Source: Gammaproteobacteria bacterium (GTDB lineage Bacteria; Pseudomonadota; Gammaproteobacteria; Steroidobacterales; Woeseiaceae). From it: a stretch of DNA of 43,363 nt. The translations under genes and the position numbers were made by a program. The notes beneath the pieces are model-generated. The model worked only from the letters and a program-made list of their open reading frames with translations, was not told the origin of the DNA and made no database searches. The DNA lies in the NCBI GenBank assembly GCA_024639825.1, contig JAHEGH010000022.1:1-43363 (forward strand), given 5' to 3'. Positions 6,861-23,795 of the stretch are shown one piece after another. The first letter of the stretch is position 1; each line of letters starts with the position of its first letter.

Positions 6861-8021
6861 ATGGAAATCCCAGTGAGTAAAGATGCCCGAAAGTGGCAAC
6901 GAATCGCCCGCGATTACGCCGACGAGTATCTGCAACCGCATGAAGTAGAAGCCGAATTGAATGAGGGAGCATTGCCCGCTGAGATTACAGCCCGCAACAA
7001 GCGGCGCGCCATCGAACTCGGATTCACGGCGATCGATGTGCCGAAGAGTCACGGAGGACTCGAGCTGGCCATGGAGTCACAGGTCGCTATCTGGGAACAG
7101 CTGGGTCGTGTTACCAACGCGTTGTCATGGTGTTTCCCCGAGGCACAGTCCTGGATGTTCGAGGCCTGCACCGAAGAGCAACTGCAGAAGTACATCCTGC
7201 CGATGATGCGCGGTGAGAAAAAGGACTGCTATGCGATTACGGAGGCCGGTCCGGGGTCGGATGTATCGGGCCTCGAGGCAACTGCGGTTCGCGACGGTGA
7301 CGACTATGTGCTGAACGGCGAGAAATGGTACGTAACAAGCGGCAACCTTTCGACGTTCATGTGGTTCCAGGCGAACCTGACCGACGAGGACGATGAAGCG
7401 CTTTTCCTTGTCGACTCTGACACAGCAGGTATCGAGATCATTGCCAACCCGAAGTTCAGCCACACCTACGCGTCGCACCACCCGACCTACCTTTTCAAGG
7501 ACGTGCGCGTCCCTGTCGCACAGCGCGTTGGGCAACCCGGCGATGGTATGGCCTTTACGCACAGCTGGTTCCGGCATGAACGCCTTATGATCGGCGCCCG
7601 CAGCTGTGGTGCCATGGCGAGGCTCATCGAAGATACGATGGCCTTCGCTAACGAACGCATCATCGATGGCGCCCCGCTGAGCCAGAAACAGGCCATTCAA
7701 TTCATGCTTGCCGATTGCGCGACCGAGTTGTATGCCGCTCGGCTCATGACGTATGACGCGGCACGCGCCTCCGACGACGGCGCCGACCTCAAGACACAGC
7801 ACAGTCGCTGCTCCATGGTGAAACTCTATGTCTCCGAGGCCGCAAACCGCGTCGCCGACCGTGCCGTACAAATCTTCGGCGGTCGCGGCTACATGCGCGA
7901 GAACGTAGCCGAGCGTTTCTTCCGCGAACTCCGGGTCGACCGCATTTGGGAAGGCACGAGCGAGATACAACGGCTTATAATCGCTCGATCGCTTTTGAAG
8001 CGCGGCCTGGACGGCATGTGA
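6861..8021 (+). CDS. Acyl-CoA dehydrogenase
   Basis: The protein has 386 residues, the usual length for the family. The N-terminal helical domain is followed by the FAD/substrate signature 'CYAITEAGPGSDVSGLEATA' and by 'LNGEKWYVTSGNLS'. The C-terminus has 'QIFGGRGYMRENVAERFFRELRVDRIWEGTSEIQR'-type sequence, whose WEG Glu matches the catalytic base of medium-chain enzymes. The reaction would be alpha,beta-oxidation of a CoA thioester with electrons passed to ETF. It starts at ATG 6861, ten bases after the regulator, and its TGA overlaps the GTG of the binding-protein gene. Its presence with an acyl-CoA synthetase suggests that a carboxylate from the imported compound is degraded as a CoA ester. 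Confidence 0.9.
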   Translation: MEIPVSKDARKWQRIARDYADEYLQPHEVEAELNEGALPAEITARNKRRAIELGFTAIDVPKSHGGLELAMESQVAIWEQLGRVTNALSWCFPEAQSWMFEACTEEQLQKYILPMMRGEKKDCYAITEAGPGSDVSGLEATAVRDGDDYVLNGEKWYVTSGNLSTFMWFQANLTDEDDEALFLVDSDTAGIEIIANPKFSHTYASHHPTYLFKDVRVPVAQRVGQPGDGMAFTHSWFRHERLMIGARSCGAMARLIEDTMAFANERIIDGAPLSQKQAIQFMLADCATELYAARLMTYDAARASDDGADLKTQHSRCSMVKLYVSEAANRVADRAVQIFGGRGYMRENVAERFFRELRVDRIWEGTSEIQRLIIARSLLKRGLDGM

Positions 8022-9133
8022 CGAAGACACGACTTATCCTCGTAAGCTGCCTGCTGGCCGCTGCAGCCCTCGGAGCCTGCACCGATACGTCAAACGAAGA
8101 CCCGTCCGGGCAGAATGTTGTCAACGTCTATAACTGGGCCGACTACATCGACCCTGATGCGATCGCATTGTTCGAAGCCGAGACCGGCATCAAGGTGAAC
8201 TACGATACCTACGACTCGTCCGAGGTTCTCGACGTTAAGCTGCTCACCGGCAGCAGCGGCTACGACGTTGTCGTCCACAGCAACCGCTTCGCCACGCGTC
8301 TCACACCGATCGGCGTTTTCGAGAAACTCGACACGAGCCGGCTCGAAAACCTGGACAATCTCGATCCGGTCTTACTGGCGCGCCTTGATATCTTTGCGGC
8401 AGTCCGGGGATACCAGGTCCCTTACCACTGGGGCACGACGGGCTACGCCTGGAACGCAACGCTGGTTCGCGAACGGCTTCCCGACCATCCGATGGACAGT
8501 GCCGACGTGCTCTTTGATCCCGAGGTCGTCGCCAAACTCGCCGACTGTGGCGTCAGCCTGCTCGACAGCACATCCGACCTGTTTCCGATGACACTCGTTT
8601 ACCTTGGTCATGATCCCGCCTCGTTTGATGCCGAGAGTGTTGCCGAAATTGAAGAGACCCTGCAGTCCGTTCGACCGTATGTCCGCTACTTCAGCAACAC
8701 GAAGATGGTCTCGGACATGCCGAACAGGGAGGTTTGTGTCGCGATGAGCTGGTCCGGTGACTATGCGACGGCCAAGGCACGCGCCAGTGAGGCCGGTCTC
8801 GATATCGACCTGCGCTACACCATGCCGAAAGAGGGCTCGGGACTTTGGGTCGATGGCCTTTACATACTCGCCGACGCACCCCACCGGGACAACGCCTATC
8901 GATTTATCAATTTCCTGCAGCGGGGTGACATCGCAGCTCTGAACGCCTCGCAGACCTTCTATGCCAACGCGAATCGTGCATCGTGGAAATATCTCGATCC
9001 CGAAATCATTAACAACCCGGCGATCTACCCAAGTGATGAGGACTGGGAGCGAATCTATGCGATACCGCAGCCATCACCCAAGGAAGACCGTGTCATGACC
9101 CGAACCTACGCAAGGATCAAGAGCGGCATATGA
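8018..9133 (+). CDS. Spermidine/putrescine-type ABC transporter substrate-binding lipoprotein
   Basis: The 371-residue protein starts at GTG 8018-8020, which overlaps the preceding TGA. The N-terminus is a lipoprotein signal ('TKTRLILVSCLLAAAALGAC', modified Cys at residue 21). The mature part opens 'VVNVYNWADYIDPDAIALFEAETGIKV', the hallmark of PotD/PotF proteins. It also has 'YQVPYHWGTTGYAWN' and 'MPKEGSGLWVDGLYI', typical ligand-pocket stretches. A lipid anchor is unusual for Gram-negative PotD/PotF proteins, which are normally free in the periplasm. In this cluster the ligand may be a methylated amine or betaine rather than putrescine. Family assignment is firm, ligand is not. Confidence 0.9.
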   Translation: MTKTRLILVSCLLAAAALGACTDTSNEDPSGQNVVNVYNWADYIDPDAIALFEAETGIKVNYDTYDSSEVLDVKLLTGSSGYDVVVHSNRFATRLTPIGVFEKLDTSRLENLDNLDPVLLARLDIFAAVRGYQVPYHWGTTGYAWNATLVRERLPDHPMDSADVLFDPEVVAKLADCGVSLLDSTSDLFPMTLVYLGHDPASFDAESVAEIEETLQSVRPYVRYFSNTKMVSDMPNREVCVAMSWSGDYATAKARASEAGLDIDLRYTMPKEGSGLWVDGLYILADAPHRDNAYRFINFLQRGDIAALNASQTFYANANRASWKYLDPEIINNPAIYPSDEDWERIYAIPQPSPKEDRVMTRTYARIKSGI

Positions 9134-13172: not shown

Positions 13173-13307
13173 ATGAGCGATCGGCACTACAACATCGAGT
13201 TTGGCAGCACGGGAGCCTGCTCCCTGTGCGGACCAACGACGTTCAAGGGGTTTCACAGCAAAGATGGGGTGACAATCGAGTCAGAATCCTGCCTGCCACC
13301 CGACTGA
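13173..13307 (+). CDS. Small Cys-containing ORF, 44 residues, unknown
   Basis: An ATG-to-TGA frame encodes 44 residues beginning 'MSDRHYNIEFGSTGACSLCG' and ending 'ESESCLPPD'. A CxxC pair and a third Cys could bind metal or be redox active. The ribosome-binding site is weak (only GAG about 9 bases upstream). It lies 43 bases before the cyclase-like gene on the same strand and could be the first gene of the signalling operon. I do not recognise the sequence. It may also be a chance frame or the remnant of a longer gene. Confidence 0.35.
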   Translation: MSDRHYNIEFGSTGACSLCGPTTFKGFHSKDGVTIESESCLPPD

Positions 13308-13350
13308 ATGCGCGATATACTCCCTAAGCAGCCAATACATACAAGAAGAA

Positions 13351-14016
13351 ATGGGGATCAAGATGGCGGAAAACGCCTTTCACCAGCCCCTTACGGGGCA
13401 TGCCGAATTCGACAGACTGATCGCGGAGTTCGCAGACGAACCCGATGCCGATCGCGCTGAGAGCATTCGCTGCGGTATCTGGGACAAGTTTGGCGTCGAA
13501 GGCGCCGTATTCATTTCGGATATGGCTAGCTTTTCGAGTACGTCGCGAAAGCTCGGCGTGTGTCACTTTCTGAAGATGATCCACCGCGCCCGGCAAATTA
13601 TCGTGCCTGTAATCGAAGCAAACAACGGAATCATGCTGAAGTGCGATGCCGACAATTGCTACGCGTTTTTCGAGAGTCCCGACGATGCCATCAAGGCCAG
13701 TTTCGACGTGAACGCGACCCTGTTTCATGCCAATGAGGAATTCGGTATGGGCGAACAGATCTACCTGTCTGTTGGAATCGACTATGGGCGGGTGCTCCTG
13801 GTCGGCGACGTGGAGTTTTTCGGCGACCCGGTAAACACGGCCTCCAAACTGGGTGAAGACCTGGCGGTTCGTGAGGAGGTGCTCGTGACGCATCGTGCCA
13901 TTGAGCATTCCAAATTTGTGATTCCGGAACGTGCAGAGCGGATGGTCGCGCGTATCTCGGAGATCAAGATAAAGTATGTGCGACTGCCTATGACAGAAGT
14001 TATTGGAGACCGCTAG
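13351..14016 (+). CDS. Class III adenylate/guanylate cyclase-domain protein, possibly degenerate
   Basis: The soluble 221-residue protein is essentially one class III cyclase domain. Metal-binding Asp residues are D57 ('FISDMASFS') and D101 ('KCDADNCYAFF'). K97 and D159 ('FFGDPVN') match adenine-selecting positions. N162 of the 'VNTASKL' motif is kept, but the position four residues later, normally the transition-state Arg, is Lys (K166). Activity may therefore be low or absent, and the domain could act as a nucleotide sensor. No membrane segment or other domain is present. It is immediately followed by the GAF-SpoIIE phosphatase, so it probably feeds into or reads the partner switch. An alternative ATG at 13363 is possible. 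Confidence 0.8.
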   Translation: MGIKMAENAFHQPLTGHAEFDRLIAEFADEPDADRAESIRCGIWDKFGVEGAVFISDMASFSSTSRKLGVCHFLKMIHRARQIIVPVIEANNGIMLKCDADNCYAFFESPDDAIKASFDVNATLFHANEEFGMGEQIYLSVGIDYGRVLLVGDVEFFGDPVNTASKLGEDLAVREEVLVTHRAIEHSKFVIPERAERMVARISEIKIKYVRLPMTEVIGDR

Positions 14017-14020
14017 CATC

Positions 14021-15277
14021 GTGGGAAAAGACTCGGATGACACGCTGGCACTGCGCCAGATACTCGAGGTCACTCGTAAACTCGCCGCGCCCTTCGATCT
14101 GGACACAATGCTTGCCGAGGTCGTTGATGCATCGCGCGAGGTGCTTAATGCCGATCGCGGCACGGTGTTTCTCTATGATGACGCGGCCGACGAACTTGTC
14201 GTGCGCGTCGGTACCGGTCTGGACCACATACGCATTCCGGCGAACAAGGGCATCGTCGGGGAGTCCGCGCAGACCCGTAAACTGATCAATGTCCCCGACT
14301 GTTACGCCGACGATCGCTTCAATCGTGCGATCGACCGGCAGACTGGTTATCGTTCTCGCTGCATGTTGACCATCCCGCTGGTCGGGTATGAAGACTCACT
14401 GGTCGGCGTCCTGCAGATACTCAACAAGAATGAAGGCGTGTTTGACGAAAAAGACGAGTTCGTCGGACAGGCGCTTGCTGCGCAGGCTGCGGTAGTGCTG
14501 CACCGCGCAAAGATTACGGAGCAGATGATCGCATCGGAGCGTCTGGACCGGGAGATATCGGTAGCACGCGACGTTCAGATGGGCACCCTGCCGAAGAACA
14601 TGCCCATGATCGATGGTTATGATTTCGGAGGAGCTTTCGCACCAACCGATCAGACCGGCGGCGACCTCTACGACTTCGTTCCGCTCGACGACAAACGCCT
14701 GTTCCTGCTTATGGGCGATGCCACCGGCCATGGCATTGGTCCCGCACTCAGTGCGACCCAGGTGCGTGCCATGCTGCGCGTTGCAATTCGCCTGGAGTCC
14801 AGTCTTGACGACGCCTTCGTGCACATCAACGACCAGCTCTGCGAAGACCTGCCCGATGACCGCTTCGTCACCGGCTTCTTCGGCCTGTTGGATGCTGAGA
14901 CCCACACGGTCCGTTTCCACTCCGGCGGCCAGGGTCCGATCATGCATTACCAGGCTGAAATGGGTGAGTTCGAGTGGCATCCGGCAACGACGTTTCCGCT
15001 CGGTTACATCCCCCAGACGGACTTGCAGCCCCCGGTTGTGTCCGTGCTCGAGCCCGGCGATGTCCTCGGCCTGATTTCCGATGGCATCTACGAATATGAA
15101 AATGAACACGGGGCACAGTTCGGCCGCCAGGGTGTGATCCGGGTACTGGATGAAAACCCCGATGCGAGCGCCCAGGAACTCGTTGACAAGATCATGGCGG
15201 CTGCCCGCGAGCACGGCGGCACGGCGCCTCAGGCCGACGACATCACCATCGTCCTCGCCCGCCGGCTACCTGAGTAA
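14021..15277 (+). CDS. GAF domain-SpoIIE (PP2C) serine phosphatase
   Basis: The protein has 418 residues from GTG 14021, with GGAG about 12 bases upstream; a TTG at 14003 inside the previous gene is an alternative start. An N-terminal GAF domain (about 15-165, 'VVDASREVLNADRGTVFLYDDAADELVVRVG') is followed by a short helical linker. A SpoIIE-type PP2C domain (about 185-415) comes next. Metal motifs 'GGDLYDFVPLDD', 'MGDATGHGIGPAL', 'LISDGIYEYENEHG' and 'QADDITIVLARR' are intact. By family precedent it dephosphorylates a STAS-domain antagonist, here the product at 15719. The GAF domain is the likely input sensor. It sits in the same operon as the kinase and antagonist. Confidence 0.92.
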   Translation: MGKDSDDTLALRQILEVTRKLAAPFDLDTMLAEVVDASREVLNADRGTVFLYDDAADELVVRVGTGLDHIRIPANKGIVGESAQTRKLINVPDCYADDRFNRAIDRQTGYRSRCMLTIPLVGYEDSLVGVLQILNKNEGVFDEKDEFVGQALAAQAAVVLHRAKITEQMIASERLDREISVARDVQMGTLPKNMPMIDGYDFGGAFAPTDQTGGDLYDFVPLDDKRLFLLMGDATGHGIGPALSATQVRAMLRVAIRLESSLDDAFVHINDQLCEDLPDDRFVTGFFGLLDAETHTVRFHSGGQGPIMHYQAEMGEFEWHPATTFPLGYIPQTDLQPPVVSVLEPGDVLGLISDGIYEYENEHGAQFGRQGVIRVLDENPDASAQELVDKIMAAAREHGGTAPQADDITIVLARRLPE

Positions 15278-15285
15278 ACTCGGCC

Positions 15286-15732
15286 ATGCGACGCGACTTC
15301 CCCAGGAACCTCGACTCGCTGTCACCACTGTACGAGTTCGCCGAGAAGCTTTTCGAAACCAACGATATCTCACCGGGCGTGCGCTTCCCGGTCCATCTCG
15401 CAATGGAAGAGCTGTTCGTCAATATGGTCAAGTACAACCCCAACGTAACGACCGACATCACCGTGGAGGTGACAGTCACCTTTTTGGGAGAAGCCACTAA
15501 CGACGCCACCTCCAGCAAGGAGGTGACTGTCACTTTGGTCGATGATGGCGGCGTCGAGTTTGACGTAACGGCGAAGCGCCAGGTGAACATCGACGCCCCC
15601 CTGGAGGAGCGCACACCCGGCGGTCTGGGCATTCACCTCATCCAGAATCTGGCGGACAGGCTCGAATACACCTACAAAGATGGCCGTGGCGAGGTAATAT
15701 TTACCAAGGGTTCAGGGAATGAAGATGTTTGA
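15286..15732 (+). CDS. RsbW-like ATP-binding anti-sigma/serine kinase
   Basis: The 148-residue protein has the GHKL fold of RsbW/SpoIIAB. The N-box is 'AMEELFVNMVKY', the G1 box 'LVDDGGVEFD' and the G2 box 'GGLGIHLIQNLAD'. Members phosphorylate a STAS antagonist and sequester a sigma factor or other target. Between N-box and G1 there are two similar strands ('VEVTVTFLG' and 'KEVTVTLVD') separated by a Thr/Ser/Asn-rich loop. At DNA level this corresponds to a repeat of GGAGGTGAC-N-GTCAC 54 bases apart, so the loop looks like a local duplication. It begins 8 bases after the phosphatase stop, and the STAS gene overlaps its end by 14 bases. Confidence 0.88.
   Translation: MRRDFPRNLDSLSPLYEFAEKLFETNDISPGVRFPVHLAMEELFVNMVKYNPNVTTDITVEVTVTFLGEATNDATSSKEVTVTLVDDGGVEFDVTAKRQVNIDAPLEERTPGGLGIHLIQNLADRLEYTYKDGRGEVIFTKGSGNEDV
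15465..15536 (+). repeat. Imperfect direct repeat with nested palindromes inside the RsbW-like gene
   Basis: GGAGGTGACAGTCACCTT (15465-15482) recurs as GGAGGTGACTGTCACTTT (15519-15536), exactly 54 bases (18 codons) apart. The first copy contains the palindrome GGTGACAGTCACC. A CACCTCC (15507-15513) pairs perfectly over a 5-base loop with GGAGGTG (15519-15525). It could be a small in-frame duplication or an RNA structure that lowers translation of this gene. Confidence 0.7.
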
Positions 15733-16018
15733 GATCGAATACGGAGATGACGGCGAGGTATTGTGCCGTGGGCGGCTGGATGCCGCGCAATGCGAAAAAG
15801 CACAGGGGTTCATGGATGGACTGGAGGGCGCCAATACGCTGGATTTTGCCGACCTTGAATACATCTCCAGCGCCGGTCTCGGCATACTGCTGAAGACACA
15901 GAAACGCCTTGTGGGGAGTAGCTCAGGGCTAAAAATAATAAATGTAAACAACCACATACGCGACGTCTTCCGATATTCCGGGTTTCACACCATATTCGAC
16001 ATAGAAGCAAAAGAATAA
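15719..16018 (+). CDS. STAS-domain anti-sigma factor antagonist
   Basis: The 99-residue single-domain STAS protein has the conserved 'LEYISSAGLGILLKTQKRL' loop, whose Ser is the phosphorylation site in SpoIIAA/RsbV. Unphosphorylated antagonist binds the RsbW-like kinase and frees its target; the SpoIIE phosphatase resets it. The start is ATG 15719 (AAGGG 8 bases upstream) or ATG 15725. It overlaps the kinase gene by 14 bases and ends 45 bases before the sigma-factor gene. The released target is not known in this system. The neighbouring sigma factor is a candidate, although ECF sigma factors are normally held by their own anti-sigma factor. Confidence 0.9.
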   Translation: MKMFEIEYGDDGEVLCRGRLDAAQCEKAQGFMDGLEGANTLDFADLEYISSAGLGILLKTQKRLVGSSSGLKIINVNNHIRDVFRYSGFHTIFDIEAKE

Positions 16019-16034
16019 GTCGAAGCAACTATTC

Positions 16035-16061
16035 ACCAACCTTTTGCCGAGTCAGTTGTAC
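16035..16061 (+). promoter_or_regulatory. Putative ECF-sigma promoter before the sigma gene
   Basis: ACCAACCTTTTGCCGA is followed by 7 bases and GTAC. The same pattern with the same spacing occurs at 17402-17428 before the repeat-protein gene. An AAC plus T-run at -35 is typical of ECF sigma promoters. The GTAC ends only 2 bases before the ATG at 16064, so the transcript would be leaderless or nearly so. That short distance is the main weakness of the call. Confidence 0.55.
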
Positions 16062-16063
16062 GT

Positions 16064-16600
16064 ATGAGTAAGACAGACGATACGAAATTGATTGAACGGT
16101 GCAGTGCAGGCGACCGACAGGCGTTTGAAGCCTTGTTGGCTGAGTATGAGAAACCCGTCTATAACGCGGCCTATCGAATGCTCAACAACCGGGACGATGC
16201 CAGGGATGTGACCCAGACGGTTTTCCTGAAAGTCTTCCAGAACTTTAGTCAGTACGACCCGTCGCGCCGTTTCTTCAGTTGGATCTACCGAATCACGTTG
16301 AATGAATCGATCAACTGGCTCGGCAAAGCGAACAGACTCGAGCCGCTGGCTTTCGACGCGGCCGATGAAGGGAAAGGACCGGAGCAGCAGCTTGAGAGCG
16401 CCAGGGTGTCTGCCACCGTGCAGGCGGCACTGATGACGATCAATACCGACTACCGGACCGTCGTAGTTTTGAAGCACTTCCTGGGATGCAGTTATGTGGA
16501 AATTGGCGAAATCCTCGAAATCCCGGAAAAGACCGTTAAATCACGTCTTTACACTGCTCGACAGCAGCTCAAAGACGCACTGACCGAACTGGGCTTATGA
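16064..16600 (+). CDS. ECF-type RNA polymerase sigma factor
   Basis: The protein has 178 residues. Region 2 spans about 18-90 ('AFEALLAEYEKPVYNAAYRML', 'DARDVTQTVFLKVFQNFSQYD', 'SWIYRITLNESINWL'). Region 4 spans about 120-175 ('VVLKHFLGCSYVEIGEILEIPEKTVKSRLYTARQQLK'). No region 1 or 3 is present, as expected for ECF sigma factors. The following gene overlaps by four bases and encodes a single-pass membrane protein, the usual cognate anti-sigma arrangement. The upstream motif shared with 17402 suggests autoregulation and control of the repeat protein. It follows a complete partner-switch set on the same strand, an unusual combination. Confidence 0.93.
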   Translation: MSKTDDTKLIERCSAGDRQAFEALLAEYEKPVYNAAYRMLNNRDDARDVTQTVFLKVFQNFSQYDPSRRFFSWIYRITLNESINWLGKANRLEPLAFDAADEGKGPEQQLESARVSATVQAALMTINTDYRTVVVLKHFLGCSYVEIGEILEIPEKTVKSRLYTARQQLKDALTELGL

Positions 16601-17361
16601 CAATAGAGCAAAAATTCACAGACCTGATCAACGCCGACATTGACGGTGACATCAGCGAAGCAGAAAAGGCCGAACTGCAGGCATTCCTCAGCGACAACGC
16701 TGAAGGACGTGCAATGCACGACGAGCTTGCTGCTCTCTGTGACACGCTCGAAGGCGTCGAACAGGAAGCCCCCCCGCCCTACATGAGGCATGTCATCATG
16801 AATTCCGTACCACCGACCGGGAGTAAAGAAGAGTCCCCGGGGTTCCTCCAGATACTGTTTGCGACACCTGCGCTGAAGTACGCGGTAACGTTCGCAGCCG
16901 GCGTCTTTCTCACGCTGAGCATGTTGAGTTCCAGCCAGATTTCAAACCAGACCTTTGACAACGTAACCGGGCTGGTCGGAACGGTAGCAGAGCCAGTCAA
17001 TACAACATTTGCCCGGTCTGTGACGCTAAGCGAGACCGATATCGCGGGCACTGTGTCGTTACGCAGCGCCGGCTCGATCATGATTCTCGATTTCGATTTG
17101 GTCTCTACGGACCATATAGAGGTTCAGGCCGACTACACCGACAGGACAATCTGGTTTAACGGCTTTGCGCAGCTCGAGAGCGAAGGAACGACGGTTTCTG
17201 CGGAAGCGGGCCGGGTGCGGCTGAACATGGAAGAAGGCAAACGGCGCTATGCCGTTTATCTGCATAACCAGGGCGCCCGTCGTACAACCGTCAGCCTGCG
17301 CTTCCTGGCTGACGGCAAGGTTGTCCATCAGGCGAAACTCGACTATTCGCCTGGTCACTAA
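16597..17361 (+). CDS. Membrane anti-sigma factor (probable)
   Basis: The protein has 254 residues and starts at ATGA overlapping the sigma stop. A cytoplasmic N-terminus (about 1-90) resembles anti-sigma domains ('LINADIDGDISEAEKAELQAFLSD'). It lacks the HxxxCxxC zinc motif and has only one His and one Cys in that area. A membrane helix lies at about 93-112 ('LKYAVTFAAGVFLTLSMLSSS'). The remaining 140 residues are periplasmic and beta-rich, with a C-terminal Ig-like stretch ('RYAVYLHNQGARRTTVSLRF'). Regulated cleavage is the usual way to free the sigma factor in such pairs, and a PrsW-type protease is encoded at 21620. The assignment rests on position and topology more than on sequence motifs. 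Confidence 0.75.
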   Translation: MTIEQKFTDLINADIDGDISEAEKAELQAFLSDNAEGRAMHDELAALCDTLEGVEQEAPPPYMRHVIMNSVPPTGSKEESPGFLQILFATPALKYAVTFAAGVFLTLSMLSSSQISNQTFDNVTGLVGTVAEPVNTTFARSVTLSETDIAGTVSLRSAGSIMILDFDLVSTDHIEVQADYTDRTIWFNGFAQLESEGTTVSAEAGRVRLNMEEGKRRYAVYLHNQGARRTTVSLRFLADGKVVHQAKLDYSPGH

Positions 17362-17481
17362 AGCCCTGCAGGGCTGGTTCGCGAGTCGATTGGCGCAAGA
17401 CACCAACTTTTTGTCGACCGGCCGGTACTGCAGATAAGACGAACACCACAGAGCCCGATACAGGGCCAAGGGGATGGAAAG
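17362..17481 (+). other. Intergenic region before repeat-protein gene
   Basis: These 120 bases start with the perfect 14-bp palindrome AGCCCTGCAGGGCT (17362-17375). No T-run follows it, so it is not a clear terminator. The ECF-like promoter at 17402-17428 lies in the middle. A weaker sigma-70-like pair, TTGTCG (17411) and GATAAG (17433) with a 16-base spacer, overlaps it. The purine-rich AAGGGGATGGAAAG before ATG 17482 is the ribosome-binding region. Confidence 0.5.
17402..17428 (+). promoter_or_regulatory. Putative ECF-sigma promoter before the nonapeptide-repeat gene
   Basis: ACCAACTTTTTGTCGA, 7 bases, then GTAC. It matches the element at 16035-16061 at 14 of 16 positions in the first block and fully in GTAC, with identical spacing; the 7-base spacer differs. 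This is the pattern expected of a sigma factor that controls both its own gene and a target gene. It lies 53 bases before the ATG at 17482, a normal 5' leader length. Confidence 0.62.
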
Positions 17482-18546
17482 ATGGCTACAAGCAACAAAA
17501 CAATTCCTGTCATATTGATCGGCGTCGCAGCGCTGGCCGTGGTCGCGTACTTCGGCATGAACAACCCGGCAGGTGACGAAGTCGCCGGTACGGTTGCTCC
17601 GGCGGAGCGCTATCGCGCCACTCAGGACAATGAAATCCAGCTCGGCGACGAGTCGATCCAGGAAGTCATGCAGTCCGACGTGTTTGCGCGCCTGGTCGCC
17701 GATGACGCATTCCGCGAGGCCATGCGCAGCGAAGCTTTCCGTAATGCACTGTCCAGCGACGCGCTTCGCGACGCTTTCGCAAGCGCTTCATTCCGCGACG
17801 CATTGTCCAGCGCTTCATTCCGTGACGCACTGTCCAGTGATCGCCTTCGCGATGCATTTTCGAATGCCTCGATGCGCGACGCCTTTGCCAGCGCCTCATT
17901 TCAGGACGCACTGAATAGCGACGCATTACGCGAGGCATTTACGAGCCGTTCTATGCAGGACGCCTTCGCGAATGCTTCATTCCGCGATGCGATGTCGGAC
18001 AAAGCATTCCGCGACGCGCTGCGTAGCGACAAACTGCGCGAGTCAATGATGAGCCAGTCGTTCGCAGACGCACTGCGCAGCGAAAACTATCGTGACGCGT
18101 TCAGCAGCGCAGCATGGGCCGACGCAATGCGCAGCAACGCATTCTCCGATGCATTGAGCAGCGCTTCGTTCCGCGACGCTCTGGCCAGCGACAACCTGCG
18201 CAATGCCTTGGCCAGCCAGTCATTTGCCGACGCTCTGGCCAGCGACAACCTGCGCAACGCGCTGTCGAGTGACGCTCTCCGCGATGCACTGACCAGCGAC
18301 GCACTGCGTGATGCCTTTGCCAGCGCTTCGTTCCGCGACGCAATGGCCAGCAACGCCTTCCGCGATGCACTCTCAAGTGATGCACTGCGCGACGCCTTTG
18401 CCAGCGCTTCGTTCCGCGACGCAATGGCCAGCAACGCCTTCCGCGACGCGCTGGCCGCCGACAATCTGCGCCTGGCCTTCTCCAATCGTGGATTCATGGA
18501 AGCCCTGCGTTCCGACGCTCTGAGAGACAACCTGAGCGAGCGGTAG
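17482..18546 (+). CDS. Membrane-anchored nonapeptide-repeat protein
   Basis: The 354-residue protein is not one I recognise. Residues 8-25 form a single hydrophobic helix ('IPVILIGVAALAVVAYFG'), so it is an inner-membrane anchor or uncleaved signal. After a linker, residues 57-353 consist of exactly 33 consecutive 9-residue units with no gap. The consensus is x-[AS]-[FL]-R-D-A-[FLM]-x-S, for example DALRDAFAS and ASFRDALSS. Position 3 is aromatic or aliphatic, position 6 almost always Ala and position 7 hydrophobic. It is not the Gly/Asp-rich RTX nonapeptide. It may form an elongated periplasmic solenoid or helical rod. It follows the sigma/anti-sigma pair and has a matching sigma promoter, so it is a likely target of that sigma factor. 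Confidence 0.9.
   Translation: MATSNKTIPVILIGVAALAVVAYFGMNNPAGDEVAGTVAPAERYRATQDNEIQLGDESIQEVMQSDVFARLVADDAFREAMRSEAFRNALSSDALRDAFASASFRDALSSASFRDALSSDRLRDAFSNASMRDAFASASFQDALNSDALREAFTSRSMQDAFANASFRDAMSDKAFRDALRSDKLRESMMSQSFADALRSENYRDAFSSAAWADAMRSNAFSDALSSASFRDALASDNLRNALASQSFADALASDNLRNALSSDALRDALTSDALRDAFASASFRDAMASNAFRDALSSDALRDAFASASFRDAMASNAFRDALAADNLRLAFSNRGFMEALRSDALRDNLSER
17650..18540 (+). repeat. Tandem 27-bp coding repeats, 33 units
   Basis: The 891 bases are 33 in-frame units of 27 bp. Most units have diverged in DNA, but some are fresh copies. A 53-base stretch at 18313-18365 is identical to 18394-18446 (81 bases, three units apart). A 29-base stretch at 18175 recurs at 18229 (two units apart). 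The array therefore grows by duplication of blocks of two or three units, and copy number may vary between strains. Confidence 0.95.
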
Positions 18547-18592
18547 GCCCTTATCCCCGGCCTCACGCTCAGGCGAAAAAGAGGAGCAAGAC

Positions 18593-18622
18593 CTGAGGAC
18601 GCGACATGGCTCGCGTCCTCAG
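18593..18622 (+). promoter_or_regulatory. 12-bp perfect hairpin in the leader of the peptidase-barrel gene
   Basis: CTGAGGACGCGA (18593-18604) pairs perfectly with TCGCGTCCTCAG (18611-18622) across a 6-base loop CATGGC. No T-run follows, so it is not an ordinary terminator. The loop holds an in-frame ATG (18606) for the downstream gene, 45 bases before the preferred start. It could be an RNA control element, a processing site between the repeat-protein and peptidase messages, or a DNA-binding site. Confidence 0.6.
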
Positions 18623-18650
18623 TACGTTGGAGGAAATAAAGGGAGAGAAC

Positions 18651-21623
18651 ATGCGAAACGCAGGCGCCCGATATTTAATCACCATGGCACTGGCCGTCCT
18701 GGTCGGTGCCAACGCGTTTGGGCAGCAACTTAGTTCCGTCGAAACGGACAAGCTCAGACTGCTGTACTTCGATCCAACTGAAACCTACCTCGTCCCGCGA
18801 GTCATCCAGACATTTCATAACTCGATGGAGCGTCAGGAAAGTATTCTCGGTTACACGTCCGACGAAAAAATCACCATCCTGCTTACCGACTTTGCCGATT
18901 ACGGCAATGCCGGGGCAACGTCCGTCCCGGCAAGCTCTGTCGTTATCGACATTGCACCCATTCCTCTGACATTCGAGACATCGGCCGTAACCGAACGAAT
19001 GTATACGATCATGAACCATGAGCTGGTTCATATCAGTAATACCGATCAGGCAGCGCCGGCCGACCTTAAGGCCCGACGTTTTTTCCGCGGAAAAGTACTC
19101 GCCATCCCCGAACATCCCGAGACGATTCTCTACCAGTACCTTACAGCTCCCCGCAAAACCAGTCCCCGTTGGTTCCTGGAAGGTATGGCGGTATTTCTCG
19201 AGACCTGGATGGCAGGCGGTCATGGCCGCGCCCAGGGCGCCTACGACGAGATGGTCTTCCGCGCCATGGTTCGTGATGACGCACACTTTTATGACCCGCT
19301 GGGTCTCGTGGCCGAGGGCGTCAAGGTCGACTTCCAGGTTGGTGCCAATGCCTACCTCTACGGCGCGCGCTTCATCACCTGGCTTGCCTACGAGTACTCT
19401 CCCGAGAAAGTAGTCGAGTGGGCACAACGTACCGAAGGCAGCCACCGCTCCTATGAGGAAGAGTTCAATCGTGTTTTCGGCAAGCGCCTTAATGACGCCT
19501 GGCAGGACTGGATCGCTTTCGAACACAAGTACCAGGAAGAAAATCTTGCGCGCATCCGCGAATTCGCGACGACCCCTTACGAACCCCTCACACGCGAGGC
19601 CGTGGGCTCGATCTCTCGCGCCTATTATGACGCCAGCACCAACAGCCTGATTGCCGGCTTTCGCGAGCCGGGCGTGACCGCAAATATCGGCGAACTTTCG
19701 CTCGAGAACGGCAACCTTCGACGCCTTGAGGACGTCAAGGGACCGATGGTCTACCGCGTCGCCTCTGTGGCCTTCGACAACGACTCGGACACGATCTTTT
19801 ACACGACCGACAACTATGCCTATCGGGATCTTATGCGGCTGGATCGCAAGACAGGCAAAGCCAGCATGCTGCAACGCGATGCGCGTATCGGCGAGATTGT
19901 TTTCAATCCACAGGACCGTTCGCTGTGGGGCGTGCGTCACCTGAACGGTTACGCGTCGATTGTGCGCATACCGCATCCCTATACGGAGTGGAACCTGGTC
20001 AAGACCCTGCCCTATGGCGGGATTGCCTACGATCTCGATATATCACCCGACGGGACAAAACTGTCGGGTTCGTTTGGCGATCTCCAGGGAAAGCACGCTC
20101 TGCAGGTTCACGACATTGAGACATTACTGAATGACAGGCTGGAACCTGTTGCCGAGTACATATTCGGCGATACGATTCCGGAAAGCTTTGTGTTTTCGCC
20201 CGATGGTCGATACCTGTTCGGCAGCAGTTACTACACTGGCGTGTCGAATATCTTTCGCTTCGAGTATCAAACGGGCGCACTCGAGGCGGTCAGCAATACC
20301 GAGACCGGCTTCTTCCGCCCGATCCCGATCGACAACGATAAGCTGATTGTTTTCAGTTACACGGGGCAGGGATTCATGCCCGCCCGAATATCGGCCAAGC
20401 CGCTCGACGACGTGAGTCCAATCGTCTACCTCGGAGCGCGGACAATCGCGAAACACCCGGTGCTCGAAACCTGGCGTGCTGGCTCTCCCGATGATATCGA
20501 TGCCGAGGACCGTATTGTCTCCCGAAGCAGCTACTCCGCGATCGAAAATCTCGGCACAGAATCTATATACCCGGTGCTGCTCGGATATAAGGATTCGGTG
20601 TCGGTTGGTCTAAAGGCAAACTTCTCCGACAAACTGCGTCTCGATACGCTGAGTATCGGCGCAGGCTACACAACTGACAGCGACCTGCCTTCCGACGAGC
20701 GCGCCAACTTCAGCATCGTGTATCGCCACAATGTCATCAGCGCGAGTCCGCTTTCCGGTGCGTGGACGTTCTCGGCAAAACGAAACAATGCTGACTTTTA
20801 TGATCTCTTCGGTCCGACCAAACGCAGCCGCAAGGGTAACCAGTTCTCGATCGAGTTCGACAGGGCACTGATCTCGGACAGTCCGCGGCGGCTCGACCTG
20901 GCCATGAATTTAAGCCACTTCACGGACATGGACAGCCTGCCGCGCTACCAGAATATCCCGGCGGCCTTTGATAAATTGTCAGCATTCGAGGCAAGCCTCG
21001 AATACTCGGATGTGAAAGCTTCGCTCGGTGCAGTTGATGACGAGAAGGGCTATAAGTGGATCCTGGGAAGCAGCTTCAACTACGTCGACTCAGACACGAT
21101 CCCCAAATTGGTGGCCGGCTTCGACTTCGGGTTTGCCCTGCCCTGGAAACACTCCTCCATCTGGCTGCGCAACTCGGCCGGTGGGGCATTTGGTGAGACT
21201 TCGGACGTCTTTGCGAACTTCTACTTCGGCGGCTTTGGCAATAACTATGTGGATCGCAGTTCGGTCAAACGCTATCGCGACGCCATTTCGATGCCGGGCT
21301 TTGAGATCAATGCTGTACCAGGTCGCAATTTCCACCGCGCAATGCTCGAATGGAACCTGCCGCCTGTAAGATTCACGCGAGTCGGAACGCCGGGCTTCTA
21401 CCTGAGCTGGGCACGGCCTGCAGTTTTCGTGAGCGCTCTGACAACGAACCTCGACGACAGCACCCTCCGCCAGGAAGTACAGAGCGCGGGCTTTCAGATC
21501 GACTTCCGCTTCACTGTCCTGTCGCGCCTGAATATGACCCTTTCGGCGGGCTATGCGAAAGGCTTCGGTAACAGCATAATCCCCGATGATGAGGAGTTTA
21601 TGTTGTCGCTGAAGATATTGTGA
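18651..21623 (+). CDS. Secreted HExxH peptidase/beta-propeller/outer-membrane beta-barrel fusion
   Basis: The 990-residue protein starts at ATG 18651 (GGGAGAG upstream) with a signal peptide ('MRNAGARYLITMALAVLVGA', cut near 'AFG/QQ'). An N-terminal zinc-peptidase domain carries 'IMNHELVHIS' (H123, E124, H127) and a downstream 'WFLEGMAVFLE' with the likely third ligand E177, a gluzincin arrangement. Residues of roughly 310-640 hold TolB/WD40-like blades ('DLDISPDGTKLSGSF', 'FVFSPDGRYLFGSSYYTGVSNIFR'). The last 300 or so residues alternate in beta-barrel style ('SVGLKANFSDKLRLDTLSIGAGYTT'), as in D15/surface-antigen barrels, but the chain ends in Leu rather than Phe. An alternative in-frame ATG at 18606 would add 15 residues. 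The peptidase probably faces the periplasm or the surface. Confidence 0.82.
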   Translation: MRNAGARYLITMALAVLVGANAFGQQLSSVETDKLRLLYFDPTETYLVPRVIQTFHNSMERQESILGYTSDEKITILLTDFADYGNAGATSVPASSVVIDIAPIPLTFETSAVTERMYTIMNHELVHISNTDQAAPADLKARRFFRGKVLAIPEHPETILYQYLTAPRKTSPRWFLEGMAVFLETWMAGGHGRAQGAYDEMVFRAMVRDDAHFYDPLGLVAEGVKVDFQVGANAYLYGARFITWLAYEYSPEKVVEWAQRTEGSHRSYEEEFNRVFGKRLNDAWQDWIAFEHKYQEENLARIREFATTPYEPLTREAVGSISRAYYDASTNSLIAGFREPGVTANIGELSLENGNLRRLEDVKGPMVYRVASVAFDNDSDTIFYTTDNYAYRDLMRLDRKTGKASMLQRDARIGEIVFNPQDRSLWGVRHLNGYASIVRIPHPYTEWNLVKTLPYGGIAYDLDISPDGTKLSGSFGDLQGKHALQVHDIETLLNDRLEPVAEYIFGDTIPESFVFSPDGRYLFGSSYYTGVSNIFRFEYQTGALEAVSNTETGFFRPIPIDNDKLIVFSYTGQGFMPARISAKPLDDVSPIVYLGARTIAKHPVLETWRAGSPDDIDAEDRIVSRSSYSAIENLGTESIYPVLLGYKDSVSVGLKANFSDKLRLDTLSIGAGYTTDSDLPSDERANFSIVYRHNVISASPLSGAWTFSAKRNNADFYDLFGPTKRSRKGNQFSIEFDRALISDSPRRLDLAMNLSHFTDMDSLPRYQNIPAAFDKLSAFEASLEYSDVKASLGAVDDEKGYKWILGSSFNYVDSDTIPKLVAGFDFGFALPWKHSSIWLRNSAGGAFGETSDVFANFYFGGFGNNYVDRSSVKRYRDAISMPGFEINAVPGRNFHRAMLEWNLPPVRFTRVGTPGFYLSWARPAVFVSALTTNLDDSTLRQEVQSAGFQIDFRFTVLSRLNMTLSAGYAKGFGNSIIPDDEEFMLSLKIL

Positions 21624-22633
21624 CGGGAAGCTATGTAATTCATACCCTGCTTGGCCTGCTGCCCGTATGCTGTTTCCTGGCAGCACTCATTTACCTGGAC
21701 AGCTACAAGCTTGTTCCGATTCGCTGGGTTCTCTCTGCAATCGGGCTCGGCTGCTTCGCAGGCATACTCAGCTACCCGCTAAATGTAGGTGCTGCAGCGC
21801 TGCTTGATATCGAGTTCGTGTCGCTGACCCGATATGTTGCCCCGTTTATTGAGGAATCCCTCAAAGCGATCATCATCATTGTTTTGATGCGCAACAACCG
21901 GGTGGGATTTCTTGTCGATGCAGCAATCTTCGGCTTTGCGGTCGGTGCCGGGTTCGCCATCTTTGAGAACCTGTATTACCTGCAGGTAGCGCCGGACATG
22001 CAGCTCGGCACGTGGATCGTTCGCGGCTTCGGCACCGCCATGATGCACGGCGGCGCAACTGCAATCTTCGCCATCACGTCGCATACATTGATGGGCGAGC
22101 ACCCGACGAAGGGCATCGTCCTTCTGCTGCCGGGCTTCCTCGTCGCAGCCATTGCCCATTCTGTCTACAACCACTTCTTTTTCGCGCCGATTATTAACAC
22201 GATGATTATCCTGGCATCCCTGCCAGTACTGCTGACAGTCGTTTTCCAGCAAAGCGAACGATCCGTTTCAGACTGGCTGGGCATGGGTTTCGATGCGGAT
22301 ACCGAACTGCTTCAACTGATCAACTCCGGTGAGTTTTCGACGTCGAATGTCGGCCATTACCTGCACTCGCTGAAGGAGAAATTCGAGGGGCCCATCGTGG
22401 TCGACCTGCTCTGCTACCTGCGGCTGCACACGGAACTGTCGATCCGGGCAAAGGGGCTGCTCATGATGCGTGAACAGGGATTTATGGATAAGGCCGGGGA
22501 AGAAACGAAGGCCAAGCTCGAGGAACTAAAGTTCCTCGAGTCCAGTATCGGTACAACGGGACTGCTCGCTATGAAGCCCTTCATGCATATGAGCCAGAAG
22601 GACCTCTGGCAGTTTTACATGCTCGCAAACTAG
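21620..22633 (+). CDS. PrsW-family intramembrane metalloprotease
   Basis: The 337-residue protein starts at GTG 21620, which overlaps the previous TGA. Several membrane helices carry the PrsW/CPBP-like motifs: EE at residues 78-79 ('APFIEESLKA'), 'GAGFAIFEN' (E116, N117), 'MMHGGATA' (H143) and 'AHSVYNHF' (H180, N184). In Bacillus, PrsW makes the first cut in anti-sigma factor RsiW. Here a membrane anti-sigma factor is encoded 4.3 kb upstream on the same strand. The C-terminal 120 residues form a soluble helical tail absent from a minimal PrsW. Coupled to the peptidase-barrel gene, it is a good candidate for the sigma-releasing protease; this link is inference. Confidence 0.88.
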   Translation: MTGSYVIHTLLGLLPVCCFLAALIYLDSYKLVPIRWVLSAIGLGCFAGILSYPLNVGAAALLDIEFVSLTRYVAPFIEESLKAIIIIVLMRNNRVGFLVDAAIFGFAVGAGFAIFENLYYLQVAPDMQLGTWIVRGFGTAMMHGGATAIFAITSHTLMGEHPTKGIVLLLPGFLVAAIAHSVYNHFFFAPIINTMIILASLPVLLTVVFQQSERSVSDWLGMGFDADTELLQLINSGEFSTSNVGHYLHSLKEKFEGPIVVDLLCYLRLHTELSIRAKGLLMMREQGFMDKAGEETKAKLEELKFLESSIGTTGLLAMKPFMHMSQKDLWQFYMLAN

Positions 22634-22637
22634 AAGC

Positions 22638-23795
22638 TCAGCGCTCGCTAAAGCTGGAAGGCGCAGCCAGCGTTCTGAGAAATGCCTCCAGATACGCCAA
22701 TTCAAGCTTGCTAAGGCCTAGTGGCTTGGTCTCGTTATGGCCGATCATGGCATCCGGCGCCTCATTATAGTGCGCCAGCATATCCGCTAACGTTGCGACC
22801 TGGCCTTTATGGCCGTAAGGCGCCGTATTTTCGAGATTGCGCAGAGACGGCGTGCGAAACGCGCCGATCAGTTCCGGACCCGTGTGCGCGAAGTCCAGTT
22901 CGGCACATTCCCTGGCCGGATCGTCGCTGTGCGCACCCCTGCAATTGAAAGGCTGCTCCAGGACCTCGCGAATGCCGACGATGCGACCCTTGTCGGGTGC
23001 CTCGCCCTCGAAATTGATCAGACCTGTATTGTGAAACTCGTTGTCGGTGAGTAGCGGACCGTTGTGGCACTGCGTGCAATTGGCTTCACCGATGAATAGC
23101 CGCAGACCGCGCACCTCTTCATCGGTAAATAATGCGGCTTGCTGAGCTTTGTCACCGGCAACCACGGCTGCCACATAACGATCGAAACGTGATGGCGTTG
23201 GCATGATCGTGCGCTCGAAGGCTGCAATAGCCTTGCCGATGTTCGAGAACATCGTGTCCACACTCGACGCTTCGCCGAACAGCGCCTTGTACATGCGCCA
23301 GTAGTCCTTGTCTTCGACAACAATCGCGATGGTCGTAAGCCTGTTCACGGCATGCTCATCCGGATCCTCGAGCGGCGACAGGGCCTGCGACCACTGGCTA
23401 TCGCGGCGCCCATCCCGGTAGAACCAGGGGCTGTAGGCCGTGCCGACGATGCTGGGGGTATTTCGTTTCGACGTACCTATCGCAACGCCCTTCGGCAGAC
23501 CATCAGCAAAGTGTCGCTCGGGCTGGTGACAGGTCCCACAGGAAACCGCACCATTCGTGCTGAAGCGGGTATCAAAGAAAAAGCGTCGACCAAACTCCAC
23601 AGCGCGTGGATCATCCGCGACGCCATTCGTGGGATCCGGTGGCAGATCCGGAAGCGATTCGAGCCAGAGGGACTCGAGAACAGCGATGCCCTCTTCTGAC
23701 CAGCCTCGCGGCTGATAATGCCACCTCGACACGAGCCATACGATGGTCACGATCGTTAGCGCAAGAGCGGCAAAGGTGATGAGGCGGATTCTCAC
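22638..23795 (-). CDS. Di-heme cytochrome c peroxidase/MauG family protein
   Basis: The 385-residue protein starts at GTG 23793-23795. An N-terminal membrane helix (about 5-22) anchors it or directs export. Two heme c sites are visible: C86-G-T-C-H90 and C240-T-Q-C-H244. Other family stretches are 'RRFFFDTRFSTNGAVSCGTCH', 'FRTPSLRNLENTAPYGHKGQ' and 'FLRTL'. The family reduces peroxide or carries out MauG-like oxidations in the periplasm. Its stop is four bases from the PrsW stop on the other strand. No electron-donor cytochrome gene is adjacent. Specific substrate is unknown. Confidence 0.9.
   Translation of the reverse strand: MRIRLITFAALALTIVTIVWLVSRWHYQPRGWSEEGIAVLESLWLESLPDLPPDPTNGVADDPRAVEFGRRFFFDTRFSTNGAVSCGTCHQPERHFADGLPKGVAIGTSKRNTPSIVGTAYSPWFYRDGRRDSQWSQALSPLEDPDEHAVNRLTTIAIVVEDKDYWRMYKALFGEASSVDTMFSNIGKAIAAFERTIMPTPSRFDRYVAAVVAGDKAQQAALFTDEEVRGLRLFIGEANCTQCHNGPLLTDNEFHNTGLINFEGEAPDKGRIVGIREVLEQPFNCRGAHSDDPARECAELDFAHTGPELIGAFRTPSLRNLENTAPYGHKGQVATLADMLAHYNEAPDAMIGHNETKPLGLSKLELAYLEAFLRTLAAPSSFSER

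Follow-up and report, generated by a model that had tools for sequence, protein, structure and literature searches.

Do the genes crowded around a prsW homologue, which encode a cytoplasmic partner switch, an extracytoplasmic function (ECF) sigma factor, a membrane anti-sigma factor, a repeat protein and an outer-membrane barrel protein, work as one signalling system, and which of them belong together? This question is raised by a 43,363-nucleotide stretch of a Gammaproteobacteria bacterium of the family Woeseiaceae (GCA_024639825.1, contig JAHEGH010000022.1, positions 1 to 43,363, forward strand; here called the window), carried by a draft genome of 3.4 Mb whose near named relatives include Woeseiaceae metagenome-assembled genomes (MAGs). 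Comparison across loci (L numbers) and genomes (G numbers) identifies the repeat protein ("rod"), the barrel protein and PrsW as the constant core, and the sigma/anti-sigma pair and the partner switch as separable regulators. We give about even chances to the reading that the whole is an ECF sigma locus that regulates itself, is controlled by proteolysis and chiefly drives production of its own envelope machine.

Nine plus-strand genes lie consecutively at 13351-22633, with neighbours overlapping or at most ~120 nt apart. Pfam and NCBIfam profile matches are given with E values for the genes that have them:

13351..14016, plus strand: class III cyclase-like protein with a weak Guanylate_cyc match (E 6e-4, below cut-off), peripheral to the locus
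14003..15277, plus strand: GAF-SpoIIE phosphatase (SpoIIE, E 8e-41)
15286..15732, plus strand: RsbW-like HATPase, a kinase (HATPase_c_2, E 2e-16)
15719..16018, plus strand: STAS antagonist with Ser50/Ser51 in ISSAG (STAS_2, E 6e-8)
16036..16062, plus strand: promoter-like site with 2 mismatches, starting ~28 nt 5' of the sigma open reading frame (ORF), at the same position in many relatives
16064..16600, plus strand: ECF sigma factor (SigW as top NCBIfam row, E 2e-36, scoring 125 bits where the cut-off is 209)
16597..17361, plus strand: membrane anti-sigma factor with an N-terminal anti-sigma-like domain, one transmembrane (TM) segment (residues 92-110) and a periplasmic domain (NF052375, E 9e-5, below cut-off)
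16978..16983, plus strand: juxtamembrane Gly128-Thr129 of the anti-sigma factor (G in 31/31 and T in 30/31 anti-sigmas)
17403..17429, plus strand: exact promoter-like site CCAACTTTTT-N12-GTACT, 5' of rod-barrel-prsW
17482..18546, plus strand: repeat protein (rod) with one N-terminal TM segment (residues 8-26)
17587-17616, plus strand: rod motif GTVAPAERYR
17680-18543, plus strand: rod nonapeptide repeats, ~32 units, residues 67-354
17690..21600: approximate allele-replacement block, covering the rod repeats and barrel gene, relative to L041/L065
18606..21623, plus strand: outer-membrane protein with HExxH peptidase (residues 42-317), TolB-like propeller (325-596) and BamA-like barrel (639-1005)
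21620..22633, plus strand: PrsW (E 4e-20), an intramembrane protease in which EExxK, FxxxE, H and HxxxN are conserved

The preliminary description of this DNA had listed ten uninterrupted plus-strand genes. Nine are located as it said, but the tenth, a small Cys-containing ORF of 44 residues (13173-13307), was rejected as a component; it is the C-terminal end of an ornithine/diaminopimelate-type decarboxylase (22/36 residues identical to L059), which is intact in L059 (3519-4667) and decayed in the window. The real start of the phosphatase may lie later than the listed TTG.

Relatives were located by their barrel gene. The comparison covers 90 loci (the window, the best 80 of 193 relatives and 9 others), counted after removal of 17 duplicate fetches, and each count uses loci with enough flank. 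PrsW is encoded directly 3' of the barrel in 77 of 81 testable loci, the misses being L054, L091, L095 and L092, where it lies farther along, and the rod gene stands 5' of the barrel in 49 of 51 (misses L053 and L054); barrel and rod are the most constant neighbours of PrsW. An ECF sigma gene lies upstream in 32 of 44 testable loci, a STAS gene is present in 32 of 44 and a phosphatase gene in 27 of 40. The cyclase, earlier counted as a component, is indeed present in the window and has D57, K97 and D101 among its invariant residues (13 sequences), but it occurs in only 11 of 39 testable loci and is peripheral. The parts stand in a different order in L092; conservation of the neighbourhood extends, with the order changed, to an acidobacterial MAG. 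These comparisons bear out the proposal that sigma, anti-sigma, rod, barrel and PrsW are encoded together as a conserved envelope system of several genes; its proponents had staked it on gene order being conserved somewhere, and the order is kept in many relatives.

The barrel gene is strongly matched in 40 of 149 genomes (the window's own and near relatives) and weakly in four more, and was found in 193 stretches of a collection covering 84,980 species. Among the best 80 of these 193 are Beta- and Alphaproteobacteria, Acidobacteria and one MAG of the Gemmatimonadaceae; almost all come from metagenome assemblies, and the isolate Rhizobacter sp. Root404 also belongs to this set. A broad distribution across the phylum was rejected, none of 397 other genomes sampled there having a match at E<=1e-30, and plasmid carriage was rejected after a tblastn search of the barrel against 72,556 plasmid records gave no match.

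The regulators come and go around the core. L098 and L099 encode a fused phosphatase-kinase, STAS, rod, barrel and PrsW, with no sigma or anti-sigma; L053 encodes sigma, anti-sigma, barrel and PrsW, with no partner switch nearby; and, where 5 kb of upstream sequence is available, all nine alphaproteobacterial loci carry rod-barrel-PrsW and lack sigma and STAS. When ten whole genomes with sigma-less loci were searched for the sigma factor, the best matches were 2e-21 to 8e-13, and one genome had none at E<=1e-12, compared with 9e-52, 5e-48 and 4e-46 for sigma orthologues at such loci. STAS was likewise not found in the three alphaproteobacterial genomes searched. Genomes without the sigma factor retain rod-barrel-PrsW. 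Because the modules are separable, the single linear path through all ten genes that had been proposed is not supported. A better picture is a core machine made up of rod, barrel and PrsW, a sigma/anti-sigma pair that probably regulates itself and would be coupled to the core through a shared Gly-Thr site (see below), and an optional partner switch.

Several individual loci depart from the common layout. Between anti-sigma and barrel, L053 has a small lipoprotein-like ORF (8001-8700) with AGTIMAAKRATD, perhaps a degenerate rod, and an exact promoter-like site stands 3' of its anti-sigma gene and 5' of this ORF. L054 is a second barrel gene of G099, standing alone without PrsW or rod. In L129, an alphaproteobacterial locus without sigma, a LuxR-type regulator (named by eye, 7089-7799) lies just 5' of the rod and is possibly a replacement regulator.

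A DNA motif would tie the sigma/anti-sigma pair to the core. The comparison shows the pair encoded just 5' of a rod-barrel-prsW unit, with a common, predicted sigma-type promoter motif 5' of both sigma and rod. The motif CCAACTTTTY-N12-GTAYT, a probable ECF-type promoter, is present with at most 3 mismatches in 17 of 22 gaps between anti-sigma and rod genes, with a spacing of 12 throughout; the other five gaps (L081, L085, L089, L095 and L097) lack it, and those loci have a site with at most 1 mismatch at the sigma gene instead. With at most 2 mismatches, it stands just 5' of the sigma gene or rod domain in 38 of 41 sigma-bearing loci (all except L092, L107 and L132), and in L066 and L069, which are cut off before sigma, it lies 5' of the rod. 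Only six sites occur elsewhere in 1.32 Mb of loci. Against an expectation of 0.11, the window has 3 sites with at most 2 mismatches, of which one falls within the barrel gene. We conclude that the sigma factor probably reads its own gene and the rod-barrel-prsW unit.

At genome scale, the exact motif is unique in the window's genome (17403-17429) and occurs in 26 of the 149 genomes, its own included (30 sites), against none for the reversed pattern. It is present in 23 of the 40 genomes that have the barrel and in 3 of the 109 that do not (Fisher p 2.4e-13, a descriptive value that takes related genomes as independent and counts four weak-barrel genomes, E 4e-4 to 9e-4, as negative). With a GTAHT second half, it is absent from all 13 genomes whose locus lacks sigma and present in four of seven genomes from other lineages that do carry sigma; ten of these 13, all but the genomes of L127, L133 and L138, were searched whole for sigma, and L127 and L133 offer just 0.8-1.4 kb of sequence 5' of the rod. 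A large regulon was rejected, the window's genome having a single exact site and a second at one mismatch, where the control pattern gives two. Among twelve stretches around extra or split-contig sites, those in G025, G020 and G032 are the system's own rod or sigma sites, and seven show nothing clear. In L141 (G052) and L145 (G059, a motif-bearing genome without a barrel match), the exact motif lies shortly 5' of a sigma-54-activator-like AAA+ gene, possibly a further regulon member; the call rests on Pfam for the G052 copy only, and the YbaK-like gene that follows was named by eye. In G105, an exact motif also stands just 3' of prsW (L089 14173 / L144 1276), with no clear gene close downstream.

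A second candidate tie is a Gly-Thr (GT) pair that anti-sigma factors and rods share just outside the membrane. The anti-sigmas are 23-86% identical to that of the window (local alignments), with Gly128 invariant among 31 sequences and Thr129 conserved in all but one. For the rods, 56 of 57 match a GT[IV]..RY-type pattern after the TM segment, and the last, in L135, reads GTIAPVQRTQ. Within 30 residues of the TM segment (placed by hydropathy), GT[IVML] is found in every one of the 57 rods and in 30 of the 31 anti-sigmas, the GT counted in the L126, L129 and L136 rods being an earlier one at the TM end, with the later GT present in all three; shuffling predicts ~1.9 in each set, a descriptive comparison as the sequences are related. 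The position is alike in both proteins, 8-21 residues outside the single TM segment.

In addition, ten distant loci (L083, L105, L106, L107, L114, L122, L123, L128, L131 and L135) have one open frame with a scored anti-sigma domain (E 7e-16 to 1e-4), a TM segment, the motif and a rod, and L132 is an eleventh fused frame without a scored anti-sigma domain. In all 11 linkers the ORF frame is open, with stops in at least one other frame in 10 and in both others in 7. A promoter-like site with at most 2 mismatches lies inside the fused frame in 8 of 11 (three mismatches in L107, four in L122, six in L132). The nested sites lie 80-160 nt 5' of an internal ATG, which in 8 of 11 follows a purine-rich Shine-Dalgarno-like stretch (by eye); a script chose these starts by taking the final ATG ahead of the TM region, and at least in L131 and L132 the choice seems mistaken. 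Because a nested promoter-like site and an internal ATG lie in the fused frame, such loci could possibly yield both a long product (anti-sigma plus rod) and a short one (rod alone).

Rod N-termini are found in 35 of the 149 genomes, 33 of them barrel-positive. The repeat count in the window is 32 (residues 67-354), correcting the 33 units reported earlier. L107, L131, L098 and L099 have simple repeats, (NAS)n, (GTSGLS)n, (DGRG)n and (GNAA)n, instead of the rod body and keep the GT..PAxRYR head. A rod acting as a constant-length ruler across the periplasm was rejected, as the 57 rod ORFs span 154-614 aa with differing repeat bodies, lengths that include fused N-terminal domains, uncertain starts and contig ends. 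DUF826 matches the whole rod at 28.9 against a cut-off of 25 bits; no single stretch passes, and the match is therefore taken as a repeat-composition effect. The AlphaFold model of the rod was unusable, with a predicted local distance difference test (pLDDT) value of 41.

The barrel protein has no Pfam family above cut-off. Its structural model (pLDDT 88, predicted template modelling score 0.87) is confident and agrees with the earlier reading of a metallopeptidase, a TolB-like propeller and a BamA-like barrel; an alpha-rich peptidase domain and the propeller precede the barrel, with no POTRA-like domains. Rod and barrel also vary together. Between the window and L065 (same contig as L041), six other locus proteins are 86-95% identical, the rods 52% and the barrels 62%; nucleotide identity falls from ~90% to ~60% between ~17.7 and 21.6 kb and then recovers. 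L040 and L065 share 84% identity in the rod and 83% in the barrel. In the backbone tree the window pairs with L065; in the barrel tree its barrel is placed with those of L059 and L034. Both trees use 13 of 16 compared loci, L060, L066 and L069 being excluded for missing genes, and the wider barrel alignment (A2) takes in 47 of the 90 loci, with L079 (stop inside) and L090 (split frame) among those omitted. Approximately unbiased (AU) tests, for groups picked after the identity table was seen, rejected window plus L065 forced in the barrel tree (p 3e-42) and window plus L059 forced in the backbone tree (p 1e-68). The comparison shows rod and barrel inherited, by all appearances, as a matched pair; one recombination tract would explain their joint replacement between near-identical neighbours, and we infer that the two proteins may touch in the periplasm. 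Surface variation was rejected as the cause of the block, as divergence is lowest in the barrel domain (72% identity, against 61% for the peptidase and 56% for the propeller).

PrsW retains E78, E79, E116, H143, H180 and N184 in all 76 sequences, residues belonging to its active-site motifs, and its action on the anti-sigma of the window is plausible. A second, distant PrsW-like protein (28% identity) is encoded in the same genome (G000:C46 3820-4305), and a MauG/MbnH-like di-haem gene (22638-23795, profile matches below cut-offs) converges on prsW, with a strong match beside prsW in 7 of 26 fetched loci compared. The partner switch appears intact: D221, D239, D360, D412 and D413 are conserved in 35/35 phosphatases, E41, E42, N46, G112, G113 and G115 in 37/37 kinases, and S50 and S51 in 39/39 STAS proteins, the residues usually conserved in these families. 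Kinase and phosphatase are fused in L098, L099, L105, L128 and L135.

These features would fit the following scheme. PrsW, or Gly-Thr self-cleavage helped by PrsW, would cut both rod and anti-sigma at the shared GT, and the conserved rod head would engage the periplasmic propeller/peptidase part of the BamA-like protein. A change in rod supply or engagement, caused by envelope damage, assembly stress or a ligand, would lead PrsW to cut the anti-sigma; a site-2 protease and cytoplasmic proteases would complete its breakdown, and the freed sigma would raise rod, barrel and PrsW, reporting the state of the rod-barrel machine. The phosphatase/kinase/STAS switch would be a separable cytoplasmic input, and may target something other than this sigma, because it is found without sigma in L098 and L099. 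A narrower version, to which we lend only tentative credence and which is unlikely as it stands, holds that the sigma factor gauges traffic through the envelope machine by substrate mimicry: anti-sigma and rod would be alternative substrates of PrsW via the shared GT, rod supply or export would titrate PrsW away from the anti-sigma, and in fused-gene lineages the nested promoter would add rods without the anti-sigma domain.

Several observations weigh against the autoregulated sigma locus. With one mismatch allowed, the motif has 2 sites in the window's genome and the reversed control also 2; 17 of the 40 genomes with the barrel have no exact motif, and three of the seven sigma-bearing ones from other lineages lack the GTAHT form. 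The anti-sigma of L075 carries GA in place of GT, and the shared GT might have a structural role or reflect a fused ancestor common to both proteins. Ten genomes without a close sigma relative still keep PrsW adjoining the barrel, and the anti-sigma therefore need not be the substrate of PrsW. The Gly-Thr bond of FecR/FoxR-type anti-sigmas, moreover, breaks without a protease according to the account in PMC9249621, which locates the break in FoxR at Gly191-Thr192. Self-cleavage of this kind, through an N-O acyl shift in maturation with PrsW acting on another step or substrate, would suit the near-invariant GT of anti-sigmas and rods; the GT here, however, lies 8-21 residues from the TM segment, whereas the FoxR site is, on our reading, well inside the periplasmic domain, and the anti-sigma lacks a FecR Pfam match. 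We consider this explanation improbable.

Sigma might instead be merely an expression switch for a secretion or display machine, with export or anchoring of the rod by the BamA-like protein and its release from the inner membrane by PrsW; the fused anti-sigma would then report rod export like other export-coupled anti-sigmas. We regard this as rather unlikely, though worth serious attention: the barrel model lacks POTRA-like domains, the rod has no recognised secretion domain, and the higher identity of the barrel domain than of peptidase and propeller is unlike surface variation. The separate occurrence of the modules (L098, L099, L053 and the alphaproteobacterial loci) would also suit a loose cluster, in which partner switch and sigma/anti-sigma are separate regulators sharing a neighbourhood with no proteolytic link, but the common GT signature, the single-frame anti-sigma/rod fusions and the common promoter motif make that an improbable account too. 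In our judgement, the locus unites known parts in a conserved arrangement and adds a barrel protein that falls outside Pfam families, a defined promoter motif and a candidate protease signature.

If the autoregulated sigma locus is real, it would represent an outer-membrane-linked, PrsW-controlled ECF pathway in Gram-negative bacteria, offering candidate natural PrsW substrates, a candidate cleavage signature (GT just outside the TM segment) and a defined promoter, the last two each open to point mutation. The barrel itself is a protein type, peptidase plus TolB-like propeller plus BamA-like barrel, with no Pfam family above cut-off, and the natural fusions, sigma-less genomes and co-replaced rod/barrel alleles provide ready-made evolutionary experiments.

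The preliminary description knew of no system joining these parts, and literature searches, in which subscription journals were thinly covered, likewise found no description joining PrsW, an ECF sigma, SpoIIE/RsbW/STAS and an outer-membrane barrel; the main texts of PMC8103513, PMC8999054 and PMC7406223 mention neither PrsW nor SpoIIE. Among the closest known systems is sigmaW/RsiW/PrsW of B. subtilis, which likewise has an ECF sigma, a membrane anti-sigma encoded alongside and a PrsW family protease with conserved motifs; here, by contrast, prsW follows the barrel gene. The B. subtilis system is not known to include a rod, outer-membrane barrel or partner switch. Published accounts treat PrsW as a releasing peptidase (PMC3482391), report RsiW as cut by PrsW (PMC8844934) and review PrsW/RsiW (PMC4598750).

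Fec-type signalling (FecA/FecR/FecI, FpvA/FpvR) similarly runs from an outer-membrane protein through an inner-membrane anti-sigma, with a Gly-Thr bond in the anti-sigma as PMC9249621 describes, to an ECF sigma. Unlike in that system, the barrel here is BamA-like with propeller and peptidase, and PrsW is encoded in place; the barrel protein has no Pfam match to a TonB-dependent receptor with a signalling domain at E<=0.1, and the anti-sigma none to the FecR family (searched to E 1). For the RsbW-type partner switch, SpoIIE, HATPase and STAS are all present with conserved residues, and the window resembles the Bordetella BtrS/BtrU/BtrV/BtrW/BtrA system in encoding a SpoIIE phosphatase, kinase and STAS near an ECF sigma. 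According to PMC7498569, however, the anti-sigma BtrA is secreted and linked to type III secretion, and the btr genes listed there include no PrsW, rod or barrel. Unlike TolB, the TolB-like propeller here belongs to a protein of 1005 residues that also contains peptidase and barrel. Two-partner secretion and Omp85 systems are similar in setting a BamA-like barrel beside a repeat protein, the two here being replaced together, but in this locus propeller and peptidase take the place of POTRA domains and the rod retains its TM anchor.
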